DNA of 64,000 bases, taken from positions 1-64,000 of the forward strand of contig PNKH01000023.1 in NCBI GenBank assembly GCA_013822345.1, in the 5' to 3' direction. A program made the translations under genes and the position numbers. Under the pieces are notes generated by a model. That model had not been told where the DNA came from, ran no database searches, and saw only the letters and a program-made list of their open reading frames with translations. This document shows positions 1,958 through 32,744 of this stretch, in pieces (the stretch's first letter is position 1; each line of letters opens with the position of its first letter). Source of the DNA: Isosphaera sp. (GTDB lineage Bacteria > Planctomycetota > Planctomycetia > Gemmatales > Gemmataceae).

Positions 1958-1981
1958 CCACACCGAGAGGGGGCGACAGCG

Positions 1982-2278
1982 GTGCGTGTCTACGTCGAGG
2001 ACCGCCCGGTCCCGGACCCGCGGGGCGCCGGCGGGTCGGTCCGCCGCAAGGTCGCGGTCGAGGCGACGGAGGAGGAGGCGGGCTGGGGGCCGCTCCGGGG
2101 CGGGCTGCGGGAGGAGGCGGAGCGGCTGGCCCGGGAGAGGGCCGCGGCCACCCCCGCCCCGCCCGGGTTCGTCGAGGCCGGGGTCACCGTCGAGGCCGAC
2201 ACCGACCGCCCGAAGTTGAAGCTGCTCGTGCTGTGCGTCGAGGAAATCCCCTCCTACTTCCCGAGGGCGACGCGATGA
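1982..2278 (+). CDS. Small hypothetical protein, possible paralogue of its downstream neighbour
   Basis: A 98-residue protein starting with GTG at 1982 after a GAGAGGGGG ribosome-binding stretch. It opens V-E-D-x-P-V (residues 5-10), then has a short basic strand (SVRRKVAVEA), a helix (LREEAERLARERAAA), a P-P-G-F turn and two final strands (VTVEADT, KLLVLCV). The gene at 2275 has the same order of elements (VEDTPV, FVRRTATI, a helix with ALARP, P-A-G-Y, LVIDF), so the two look like diverged tandem paralogues. The stop overlaps the next start as ATGA, implying translational coupling. Function is unknown. Confidence 0.6.
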   Translation: MRVYVEDRPVPDPRGAGGSVRRKVAVEATEEEAGWGPLRGGLREEAERLARERAAATPAPPGFVEAGVTVEADTDRPKLKLLVLCVEEIPSYFPRATR

Positions 2279-2541
2279 CCGTCGAGGTCGAGGACACCCC
2301 GGTCCTGCGGCCGGACTTTATGGGCGAGGTGGAGTTCGTCCGCCGCACGGCGACCATCACCGGGGCGTCCGGCGGGCCTTGGCAGGCGGACGAGTTGGAG
2401 CAAGTCCGGGCGCTGGCCCGGCCGCACGCCGCCCCGCCGGCCGGGTACCGATACGCCTCGTCCCGGTTCGACGTGTCGCCGGCCGTCCGGCGGGCGACCC
2501 TGGTCATCGACTTCCGGCCCGCCCCGGGGGACCACCGGTGA
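2275..2541 (+). CDS. Small hypothetical protein, paralogue-like to the upstream gene
   Basis: An 88-residue protein starting at the ATG at 2275, inside the ATGA overlap with the previous stop. It shares the element order of the gene at 1982 (V-E-D-T-P-V near the start, F-V-R-R, central helix, P-P-A-G-Y, terminal hydrophobic strand). The next gene starts at a GTG overlapping its TGA (2538-2541), so at least three short genes are translationally coupled. No known family is recognised and no membrane or signal segment is seen. Confidence 0.6.
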   Translation: MTVEVEDTPVLRPDFMGEVEFVRRTATITGASGGPWQADELEQVRALARPHAAPPAGYRYASSRFDVSPAVRRATLVIDFRPAPGDHR

Positions 2542-2868
2542 TCGCCTTCATCCGCCGCCTGTTCCGCCGCCCAACCCCCGGGCGTTCGTCTACCACGACG
2601 GCGCCCGGGTGCGGGCGGCGGACCCGGTCGTAATTGCGGAGCGGCTGCTGGCCGTCGGGCCGGGTCTGCTCGACCGTGCGGGGAAGGCCGGCCCCGACCC
2701 CCTGGACGCCGCGATCGAGTTGGGGGTGATCATCGACCGGCTGGGGAGGTGTTCGAGGTCGGGCCGTTTTCCGACCGGGACGGCACCCCCACCGGGCTGA
2801 CCAAGGTCGAGGTCATCGGCCTGCTCCGCGGTTTCGCCGCATACCTCAAGCGCTACCGGAAGGGCTGA
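2538..2868 (+). pseudogene. Small hypothetical gene broken by two frameshifts
   Basis: A coherent protein can be read only by changing frame twice. Frame one starts at the GTG at 2538 (VIAFIRRLFRRP). From about 2573 the sense continues in another frame (AFVYHDGARVRAADPVVIAE, then LLDRAGKAGPDPLDAAIELG). From about 2745 it continues in a third (VFEVGPFSDRDGTPTGLTKV, then a helix ending KRYRKG) to the TGA at 2866-2868. Both shifts behave like loss of one base, the first beside a C run and the second in a G run (CTGGGGAGG, where one more G would restore L-G-E-V). The GTGA overlap upstream and the ATG two bases downstream suggest it was once a normal member of the operon. A sequencing or assembly error is an equally good explanation. 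Confidence 0.6.
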
Positions 2869-2869
2869 C

Positions 2870-3868
2870 ATGGCGACCCCGCAGGGCCTGGACGAGGCGG
2901 TCGAGCGGCTCGACCGGCTGGTGGACTTGTCCGTCATCTCGAACACCCTGGCGGCCACGTCCGGGCAACTCCTCGCCCGGGCCGTGGCGGCCCCGCCCTC
3001 CCCCGCCCCGGTCCCCGTCCCGGTCCCGCCCGCACGCCCGAGCGGGGCCGCTGCGGGTCCTCCCCCGGGCGCCCCGCCGGTTCCGCCCCCCGGTACCCCG
3101 CCCTCCCCCGCCCCGGCCGGCGGGCCGGCACCCGCCCCGGCCCCCACCCCCGACCCGGCGGAGAAGAAGAAGAAGGTCGGGCCGTGGGGGCGGGTGTGGA
3201 AGGGGCTGAAGAAGCGGACCGGCATCAGCGGCCTGATGTCCAGCATCAAGCGGGGCCGGCGGCTCGGGAAGGCGACCGGGGTGGCGGGCGGCGCCCGGGC
3301 CGGCGCGGTCGCCGGCGGGGTGGTCGGCGGGGTCGGCCTCCTGGTGACCGCCTTCAGCCGCCTCAAGGGCGCCGCAGACCAGCTTGCCGACCAGCAGATC
3401 GCGACCGTCCACCGGCTCGCCCAGGTGTCCGGGAGTATGGCGGCGATCGAGGCGGAGATGGAAGTCCGGGATGTCGAAAGGGACATCCGGCGGGGCGAGG
3501 CGACGGCCGGGAGTGCGAAGGAGTTGGCGGACGCCCGGAGCGACCGGAAGGACGCGGAGTCGGAGTTCGACGCCAAGCTCGACAACCTCCTGAACCCGTG
3601 GGCGGCGAGGTGGGAGAACTTCAGGGAGGGCCTGTTCAAGATCGGGTCCGAACTCCTCTCCGCGACCGACAGCATCGACGACCGGGTGAGGGAGATTGTC
3701 GGGAAGATGGAGGCCGGCGGCCCGGACCCGGTCGGGCTGGCGGCGCTGGAGGCGGACGTGCGGCGGGAGGCCGACCGGGTCGAGGCGGCCGGCCGGCGGA
3801 TGATGGATATGGCCCGTGCCGAGGCGTCGGCCCCGGCGGGGGCGGCGCGGCCGGGCATGCTGCCGTAG
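2870..3868 (+). CDS. Tape-measure-like / membrane-associated coiled-coil protein of the element
   Basis: A 332-residue protein starting at the ATG at 2870, two bases after the previous stop. Residues 1-45 are a helix ([12 protein letters not shown]). Residues about 45-100 are almost pure Pro/Ala/Gly/Val. Residues 100-135 are very basic ([25 protein letters not shown]). Residues about 136-165 form a glycine-zipper hydrophobic segment ([18 protein letters not shown]). The rest is long amphipathic helix and coiled coil. A hydrophobic segment followed by long helices is typical of phage tail tape-measure proteins, but those are usually longer, so this is only a suggestion. It is the last gene before the tRNA-His scar. 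Confidence 0.55.
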
Positions 3869-31130: not shown

Positions 31131-31694
31131 ATGGGGTCGGCCGCCGGCGGACTGCACGGACTGATCGACGCCCACTACGAGGCCCTTTACCGGTACGCCT
31201 ACCGGCTGACCGGGTCGGCGGCGGACGCCGAGGACCTGACGCAGGAGGCGTTCGGGCGGGCGTTCACCCGGCTCGGCCAGCTCCGCGAGCCGGACCGGGC
31301 CAAGGCGTGGCTGTTCCGCATCCTCCGGAACCTGTACCTGCACAAGGTGCGGGACGAGCGGCGGCACCGGGCCGTCCCGCTCGACGCGGTCGGCGACGTG
31401 CCGGCCCGGGAGGCCGAGGCGGGCGGGGCGGTGGATGTCGACCCGGCCCGCCTCCAGCAGGCCCTGGACGAGCTCGACGAGGGGTTCCGGACCCCGCTCA
31501 TCCTGTTCTACTTCGAGGAGTTCAGCTACCGCGACATCGCCGAGCAGATGGGCCTCCCCATCGGCACGGTGATGTCCCGGCTGGCCCGCGGGAAGGCGTA
31601 CCTGAGGGCGAAGCTCGCCCCGCCGGTCCCGGGGGCCGACCGCGAGAAGGGGAGTCCCGACCCCGCCGGCGTCGGCGGGCGGGTTGCCAGGTGA
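31131..31694 (+). CDS. ECF RNA polymerase sigma factor
   Basis: A 187-residue sigma-70 family ECF factor. Region 2 is HYEALYRYAYRLTGSAADAE followed by D-L-T-Q-E-A-F and R-A-F; region 4 is LDEGFRTPLILFYFEEFSYR with a helix-turn-helix (DIAEQMGLPIGTVMSRLARG). It would direct polymerase to a small regulon. The anti-sigma gene starts four bases after its stop, so its activity is probably held by that membrane protein and released by an envelope signal. Confidence 0.95.
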   Translation: MGSAAGGLHGLIDAHYEALYRYAYRLTGSAADAEDLTQEAFGRAFTRLGQLREPDRAKAWLFRILRNLYLHKVRDERRHRAVPLDAVGDVPAREAEAGGAVDVDPARLQQALDELDEGFRTPLILFYFEEFSYRDIAEQMGLPIGTVMSRLARGKAYLRAKLAPPVPGADREKGSPDPAGVGGRVAR

Positions 31695-31698
31695 CGTG

Positions 31699-32451
31699 AT
31701 GCAGTGCCGCGACGCCCAGTTCTACCTCCGACTCCGCCGGCCCGCCGGCGACGAGCTCGGCGCGGACGTGTCGGCCGACCTGGACCGGCACCTCGCCGGG
31801 TGCCCGGGGTGCGCCGCCGACGCCCGGGCGGCCGGCGGGTTCGACGCGGCCGTGGCCGCCGCGGTCCGGGCGGTGCCGGTCCCGGCCGGGCTGCACGACC
31901 GGCTCCGGACGGCCGCGTCCGCCCACGCCGGGGCGGTGATCCGCCGCAGGGCGTACCGGGTCACCGCCCTGGCCGCGTCCCTGCTGCTGGCCGTCGGGCT
32001 CGGGTTCGGGGTGTTCTCAGTCACCCGCCCGCAGATCGACTCGTACGCGGTGGTCGGGCCGGCCGAGGGGCTGGTGAGCGACCCCGACGCGGTGCTCAAG
32101 ACCTGGCTGGCCGAGCGGAAGCTGCCGCCGCAACTCCCGGCCCCGTTCGACCCCGACCTGCTGGTGATGGCCGGGAGCGAGCGGGTGCAGGGGGTGGACG
32201 TGCCGGTCGCCGTGTTCCGCCACCCGGACGACCCGAAGTACTTCGCCCGGCTGTACGCGTTCCGGGCGGACGGCACCCTGAACCTCGACGGCCTGCGGAA
32301 CGACTTCGCGTCCAACACGGCGGTGACCGTCATCCCGACCGACGCCCGGCAGTTCCGCGGGGTCCGGTACGTGGTCGTGACGCGCGTCCGCAACCCCCGG
32401 GAAGACCCCCTCAAGCCGTACCTCCGCACGGCCGGGACCGCCCGCCGGTGA
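31699..32451 (+). CDS. Zinc-finger anti-sigma factor, membrane-anchored
   Basis: A 250-residue protein. The N-terminus has the zf-HC2 pattern H-L-A-G-C-P-G-C (residues about 32-39), which binds ECF sigma factors. One membrane helix follows (residues about 96-116, AASLLLAVGLGFGVFSV). The remaining 130 residues are periplasmic, with a beta-rich block (VDVPVAVFRHPDDPKYFARL). The ATG at 31699 was preferred to the TTG at 31684 because it sits just behind the sigma stop. Together with the upstream gene it forms a standard sigma/anti-sigma pair. Confidence 0.88.
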   Translation: MQCRDAQFYLRLRRPAGDELGADVSADLDRHLAGCPGCAADARAAGGFDAAVAAAVRAVPVPAGLHDRLRTAASAHAGAVIRRRAYRVTALAASLLLAVGLGFGVFSVTRPQIDSYAVVGPAEGLVSDPDAVLKTWLAERKLPPQLPAPFDPDLLVMAGSERVQGVDVPVAVFRHPDDPKYFARLYAFRADGTLNLDGLRNDFASNTAVTVIPTDARQFRGVRYVVVTRVRNPREDPLKPYLRTAGTARR

Positions 32452-32516
32452 CGCCCGCCGCGCTACAATACCCCCGACGCCCGCACCCCGCGGGCGCCTA
32501 CGACCCGGAGGCGGAC

Positions 32517-32744
32517 ATGGACATCCGGCTGGAGTACTGCGCGGCCTGAGGGTACGAGCCGCAGGCCGTCAGTTTGGCGGCCAAGCTCATGACCGGGTTC
32601 AAGACCCGGATGAAGAACCTGACCCTGGTCCCGTCGAAGGGCGGGTGCTTCGAGGTGACCGCGGACGGCGAGTTGGTGTACTCGAAGCTGAAGACCGGTC
32701 TTTTCCCGGACGAGGGCGCGCTGGTCGACCGGCTCGCCGGTTGA
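32517..32744 (+). CDS. Selenoprotein W-like (Rdx family) protein with in-frame TGA as selenocysteine
   Basis: Read with TGA (32547-32549) as Sec, this gives a complete 75-residue Rdx protein: MDIRLEYCAA-U-GYEPQAVSL, then a helix, the strand NLTLVPSKGGCFEVTADGEL and the end LFPDEGALVDRLAG. The redox motif C-A-A-U-G-Y corresponds to C-x-x-U of animal SelW and C-x-x-C of Cys homologues. GGAGG stands six bases before the ATG. Reading stays open for 64 codons after the TGA and matches the family to its end. A SECIS-like hairpin follows the TGA. SelW-type proteins are thioredoxin-fold oxidoreductases. A conventional call would give a 10-residue stub or a truncated protein. Confidence 0.88.
32556..32588 (+). 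promoter_or_regulatory. Bacterial SECIS-like hairpin downstream of the TGA
   Basis: A lower stem GAGC/GCTC (32556-32559 with 32585-32588) and an upper seven-pair stem GGCCGTC/GGCGGCC (32564-32570 with 32576-32582, one G-U pair) close a five-base loop AGTTT. The loop lies 21 bases after the TGA and has G-T at its second and third positions, the feature recognised by SelB in bacterial SECIS elements. Confidence 0.75.

Follow-up and report, generated by a model that had tools for sequence, protein, structure and literature searches.

Selenoprotein W in bacteria

The redox motif of mouse SelW is CxxU. In the Sargasso and GOS sequence sets, SelW-like proteins were the most abundant bacterial selenoproteins, and the consulted sections of both reports describe the same family as is found here, with a CxxU motif and a bacterial SECIS element right after the UGA codon (PMC1088965, PMC2398784). 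The gene studied here, selW, lies in a 64,000-nucleotide stretch of DNA (the window). It shows no essential difference from the SelW-like genes described in those sections; its particular features are a planctomycete-type genome and an ECF sigma / anti-sigma neighbourhood. The eukaryotic SECIS is located in the 3' UTR (PMC1088965), whereas the predicted SECIS of the window selW is located inside the coding region. Selenocysteine (Sec) systems have been described in the planctomycetes P1, P2, Gemmata obscuriglobus and Isosphaera pallida, which like the window genome have full sel gene sets, with a Sec-containing fmdB in P2; the term 'selw' is absent from the main text of that paper, supplementary tables aside (PMC4807772).

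The window selW is a sound further example of a known and common bacterial selenoprotein. It represents no new class, since SelW-like CxxU proteins are already among the commonest bacterial selenoproteins. Two features go beyond the known type: the ECF sigma / anti-sigma setting, and a bacterial UxxU form found in relatives. We hold with high confidence that the window gene encodes a SelW-like protein with a predicted UGA-encoded selenocysteine and a bacterial SECIS, because the Sec machinery, the conservation of the TGA, selection on the hairpin and a second selenoprotein candidate all support this reading. That confidence covers the Sec-SelW reading itself and is separate from the regulatory proposals made below. 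A prediction from raw sequence was thus borne out; an ordinary gene caller could be expected to overlook or shorten this gene.

The selW gene and its predicted product

The selW gene occupies positions 32517 to 32744 of the plus strand, stop codon included, and encodes a SelW-like (Rdx) protein of 75 residues. Translation begins at the ATG at 32517 and runs through ten codons (MDIRLEYCAA) to a TGA at 32547–32549, after which 64 sense codons lead to a natural TGA stop at 32742–32744. A Shine-Dalgarno sequence, GGAGG, is present at 32507–32511, 5 nt upstream of the ATG, and purine-rich stretches are visible by eye before the same start in many relatives. The first-pass annotation of this DNA had described the gene in these terms, and its account proved correct on re-reading. 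The predicted product is MDIRLEYCAA-U-GYEPQAVSLAAKLMTGFKTRMKNLTLVPSKGGCFEVTADGELVYSKLKTGLFPDEGALVDRLAG, in which the internal TGA provides U11 of a C8-A-A-U11 motif, the second redox position as had been proposed. Assignment of this TGA as a selenocysteine codon draws on its conserved column and on the sel machinery.

Profile searches were run with Cys in place of U. The protein matches Pfam PF10262 (Rdx) over residues 3–73 with an E-value of 9.3e-20 (71.1 bits against a cut-off of 22.6) and TIGR02174 (CXXU_selWTH) at 61.6 bits against a cut-off of 34.2. With this E-value and a TIGR02174 score above the cut-off, the match is far beyond chance, and the Rdx assignment of the first-pass annotation holds in both curated families. 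The narrower equivalog NF041051 (SelTWH_Campy) scores 77 bits, below its cut-off of 88, and the protein is not a member of it. An AlphaFold2 model built from 40 aligned sequences has a mean pLDDT of 90.7 and a pTM of 0.77. The model predicts a thioredoxin-like fold with a strand at residues 2–8 followed by the redox motif C8-x-x-U11. The closest PDB chains are the SelW-related 2obk and 2fa8 (E 1e-7). Mouse SelW (2npb) also matches the model (E 2e-4) and is similar in fold, but its sequence is only distantly related (profile E 1.4e-6).

Conservation of the TGA codon among relatives

A match to SelW is present in 57 of 99 genomes, the window genome included, and contains a TGA in 54 of them; the other three comprise a Gly form in one genome and distant Cys forms in two. 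We read 110 SelW loci in full (101 distinct), made up of 30 of the 62 match rows from the 99-genome set plus the 80 best of 137 relatives, and all 110 have TGA at the Sec column; these loci are therefore the nearest homologues rather than a random draw. A phylum-wide draw gave SelW matches in 142 of 392 genomes. One in-frame TGA occurs in 136 of the 139 best matches listed, a tally made by reading the table, with the Sec column itself read in the fetched loci. Nearly all planctomycete SelW homologues found here therefore bear an in-frame TGA. Among 19 genomes of the same genus, 7 gave no SelW match.

These data bear on the alternative that selW is a pseudogene, namely a Cys-containing SelW whose Cys11 codon mutated to a real stop. 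TGC or TGT becomes TGA in one step, and a few relatives do carry another residue in place of Sec or have an interrupted frame. Against this, the TGA codon is the same across the loci and matches counted above, and the sequence downstream of it evolves as coding sequence. The 29 other loci read from the 99-genome set are 53–63% identical to the window protein, with the TGA aligned. Over 29 relatives, substitutions after the TGA number 551, 313 and 828 at the first, second and third codon positions relative to the window selW. We rejected the pseudogene reading, which we consider extremely improbable, on the conservation of the frame. Random stops and frameshifts after the TGA in close relatives, named in the first-pass annotation as the pattern that would speak against a selenoprotein, are not what these loci show.

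Several homologues depart from the common form. G023 (L165) has Gly, encoded by GGT, at the Sec position, and five further loci (L194 and L196–L199) have Gly encoded by GGC or GGA. In L167 (G049), selW is split over two frames by either a genomic frameshift or an assembly error. L172 (G036:C30) and similar matches represent a second, divergent SelW paralogue that also has a TGA; by eye, an AGTTT hairpin follows in the L172 paralogue at roughly the usual distance.

A conserved hairpin downstream of the UGA

The putative bacterial SECIS hairpin lies at 32564–32582 of the plus strand. It consists of a 7-bp stem (32564–32570 paired with 32576–32582), including one G-U pair, and the loop AGTTT (32571–32575). 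The stem begins 14 nt and the loop 21 nt after the TGA. These are the coordinates of the seven-pair stem first proposed, and its core is conserved. Published bSECIS rules call for a loop of 3–9 nt with G at position 1 or 2, an upper stem of 4–16 bp, a loop located 16–37 nt after the UGA and a minimum free energy of at most -7.5 (PMC13188914, sections consulted). The window hairpin falls within all of these limits, with the loop AGUUU, G at position 2, 7 bp, 21 nt and -21.6 kcal/mol. Folding of the 54 nt from the UGA, a check suggested in the first-pass annotation, did recover the hairpin, but the energy is only mildly better than that of shuffled sequences (z -1.67; 13 of 200 shuffles as good). 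The fold alone is consequently weak evidence, and it is conservation that makes the case for the hairpin strong.

Codon usage in the loop is strongly skewed. Of 99 loci with Ser at the loop codon (U+8), 93 use AGT and 6 use AGC, and two more loci have Gly (GGT). Among the 398 Ser codons further along these selW genes, by contrast, AGT accounts for 25. Third-position differences between the window selW and 29 relatives amount to 6/145 from U+6 to U+10, against 76/145 from U+1 to U+5 and 743/1392 from U+13 to U+60. Across 96 distinct sequences, the four core pairs are formed in 95.3% of cells and double changes occur at three of the four; none of 500 shuffles reaches this or the level of pairing. 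The number of further pair types at the core pairs is reached by 66 of 500 shuffles and shows no clear excess. With the core helix shifted by +3, pairing is 66.1% and there are 18 double-change cells, compared with 12 in the core register, but the covariation score is lower, at 0.190 compared with 0.251. RNAalifold, applied to a 101-sequence alignment, returned a weak structure in another register without double changes; the register of the first-pass annotation is better in pair counts.

More distant loci show the same behaviour of the stem. Eleven TGA-bearing matches were chosen from the phylum, and L200 and L201 were set aside as repeats of the AGC type. In the remaining nine, the compensatory exchanges G-C/U-A, C-G/G-C/A-U and G-C/A-U/C-G occur at three stem pairs. 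The loop provides no evidence in these nine, because the search expression required a loop of the form [AG]GT[CT]T. An uninterrupted stem of at least 5 bp obeying the G-in-loop rule is present in 96 of 101 TGA loci (102/110 with the nine distant loci). Of the 12 homologues lacking the TGA, two pass, by another loop. The loop word is at its place in 95 of 101 TGA loci (104/110 with the nine) and in one of the 12 non-TGA homologues (G023). Taken at the level of sequence comparison, these patterns indicate that the hairpin is selected as RNA beyond its protein-coding role.

In six loci (L104, L112, L120, L130, L133 and L150), GTG AGC CTG replaces GTC AGT TTG. A shifted hairpin, CAGGC-CGUGA-GCCUG, is the minimum free energy structure in L104, L120, L133 and L150, but not in L112 and L130, and its CGUGA loop is about 4 nt nearer to the UGA. 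These six loci without the AGT loop seem to use another or a shifted hairpin.

The first-pass annotation had added an outer stem, GAGC (32556–32559) with GCTC (32585–32588) on the plus strand. The stem pairs in the window but is poorly conserved, being paired in 56.5% of cells across the 96 distinct sequences and in three of the nine distant loci at each of its four pairs. It is probably non-functional. A scan of the window genome with RF00031 gave no match. This family, which we take to be the eukaryotic SECIS, was silent in the control genomes as well, so the miss is uninformative.

Selenocysteine machinery and a second selenoprotein candidate

The window genome (G000) is 7.47 Mb in 226 contigs and 95.2% complete. 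The first-pass annotation had called for a search for selA, selB, selD and selC, and all four were found. In profile searches, selA on contig C2 scores 553.7 bits and selD on C92 scores 384 bits; a full-length selB on C152 scores 365 bits, and 367 bits in a second search. A tRNA-Sec on C15 scores 79.6 bits, the best of the 99 genomes, and is identified by ARAGORN as SeC with anticodon TCA (UCA). Together with the second candidate described below, this set supports the earlier inference that the organism makes selenocysteine.

The sel genes are distributed with TGA-containing SelW. With kinship uncorrected, selA is present in 51 of the 54 genomes with TGA-SelW and in 20 of the 45 without (Fisher 2e-8), selB in 48/54 and 17/45, selD in 52/54 and 14/45, and selC at 60 bits or more in 49/54 and 17/45, respectively. 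The 60-bit line for selC was our choice; the next matches, taken for other tRNAs, reach 56.1 bits. RF01852 matched all 14 control genomes, in five above the cut-off. All four sel genes occur in 44 of the 54 TGA-SelW genomes and in 13 of the 45 others, and none of the four in 0 and 24, respectively. Three TGA-SelW genomes (G018, G034 and G056) have no selA above the cut-off. At least one of the four genes is missing from 10 of the 54, all multi-contig assemblies that are 65–96% complete.

A second alternative is that TGA is generally reassigned or suppressed in this organism, for example as Trp or Cys through a normal tRNA. The selW frame would indeed be open with TGA read as any residue. However, selW in the window and in many relatives itself ends at TGA, and the internal TGA stands where Rdx proteins have their redox Cys, in a genome with a complete Sec system and upstream of a hairpin under selection. 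General reassignment was rejected because TGA serves as a stop, and we assign it a negligible probability. For the Sec-SelW reading, established knowledge of bacterial Sec insertion suggests how decoding would proceed. At the UGA at 32547, SelB carrying Sec-tRNA(Sec), itself made by SelA and SelD, would bind the AGUUU hairpin 21 nt downstream of the ribosome-occupied codon. Selenocysteine would then be inserted instead of termination, giving a thioredoxin-fold CxxU protein with a presumed thiol/selenol redox role.

Two further observations concern the machinery genes. SelD of the window genome (L164, 1871–3256, minus strand) has Cys in the motif RAGCAAKHPPG, at a site that in the selD of many of the family's other genera is an in-frame TGA. 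The tRNA-Sec gene (approximately L163, 2019–2112) is located at two phage-integrase-family ORFs (748–1917 and 1978–3549), one of which overlaps it in antisense, and an element has possibly integrated at selC.

The second candidate, formylmethanofuran dehydrogenase subunit B (FwdB), begins at position 37241 of contig C56 (L187, 742–2055); the encoded stretch comprises 437 residues. It scores 483 bits against TIGR03129 (NCBIfam), and a Pfam search at E 0.001 gave no match. An in-frame TGA occurs in a U-H-G-P motif and is followed by the hairpin CCGCTC-AGTT-GAGCGG; both this TGA and a comparable hairpin recur in the three same-genus genomes read. FwdB with a UHxP motif is listed as a verified selenoprotein family (PMC13188914, sections consulted). 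The FwdB homologue of G. obscuriglobus contains glycine according to the consulted text of PMC4807772, whereas TGA is present in the four genomes read here. A TIGR01591 scan of the window genome found no full FdhA match bearing TGA; the sole TGA-bearing match was rejected as FdhA, being FwdB.

The sigma / anti-sigma neighbourhood

Two genes precede selW on the plus strand. The first, at 31131–31694, encodes an ECF-type sigma factor (Sigma70_r2, 3.5e-17; Sigma70_r4_2, 8.2e-15). The second, at 31684–32451 with a likely true start at the ATG at 31699, encodes an anti-sigma-like protein with one membrane stretch visible by eye and the sequence HLAGCPGC. This fits HxxxCxxC, which we take to be the motif of zinc anti-sigma (ZAS) proteins. 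The protein falls below Pfam cut-offs (zf-HC2, 18 against 22.2 bits; the best, DUF3379, 27.8 against 33.2 bits), and because of the zf-HC2 score the anti-sigma label is given on position and motif.

Sigma and anti-sigma genes are both found near selW in 9 of 113 SelW loci (tblastn, with some places counted twice). These nine comprise L021 of another genus and eight of the ten loci fetched from the 12 same-genus genomes with selW. The two exceptions in the genus are L002, whose upstream sequence is limited to 233 nt, and L003, with 1080 nt and no match. The HxxxCxxC motif is present in eight of the nine loci; for L004, the ORF list holds no intact anti-sigma frame. A selD match occurs in the flank of 42 of the 113 SelW loci instead, often with its own TGA. 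From the gene orders across the 113 loci, selW next to selD looks like a common and older arrangement, and selW behind the sigma and anti-sigma genes like a more recent one in this genus.

It is gene order that suggests a regulatory role for this arrangement. The anti-sigma-like protein may bind zinc, sense redox state and control selW. The selW gene would be co-transcribed with the upstream pair, and SelW would perhaps be made when the anti-sigma factor senses a redox or envelope stress. The alternative is that the Sec-encoding selW has no functional tie to the pair, and for this regulatory part of the interpretation we rate that just short of an even chance. The frequent position of selW beside selD in other genera is consistent with such independence, as are the 65 nt that separate the anti-sigma-like gene from selW here and the 74–119 nt in seven other loci. 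The recurrence of the sigma, anti-sigma, selW order within the genus, and once outside it, argues for a link. The setting offers a testable lead on the function of bacterial SelW, which is called unclear in the consulted text of PMC1088965.

UxxU forms in relatives

TGA is present at both redox positions (Y-U-x-M-U-G-Y) in SelW at L108/L173, L110/L174 and L175. The genomes are G103 and G104 of one genus and G031 of another, or 3 of 95 genomes of the family. These loci keep a normal frame and a single hairpin. In the consulted sections, PMC13188914 lists SELENOW-like proteins as CxxU with one Sec, and PMC7539508 describes UxxU SELENOW in amphioxus and Ostreococcus. Those proteins are like the UxxU SelW of the three relatives, but they are eukaryotic, and the window SelW is CxxU. 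Within the open literature searched, we found no report of a bacterial UxxU SelW. With the bacterial form, CxxU and UxxU chemistry could be compared in naturally occurring proteins.

A broader scenario, speculative and in our judgement rather unlikely, would combine these observations. Within the genus of the window genome, Sec-SelW would have moved from selD into an operon with the ECF sigma factor and HxxxCxxC anti-sigma factor, and would serve this circuit as a selenol redox arm, being its target and perhaps the resetter of the thiol switch. In sister genera, the same protein would have developed further into a bacterial diselenide (UxxU) form served by one SECIS.

A DNA pattern for UxxU gave 16 matches in 14 of 397 genomes of the class, compared with 18 for a reversed-pattern control. 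Among the 12 matches for which the locus was read, three were SelW.
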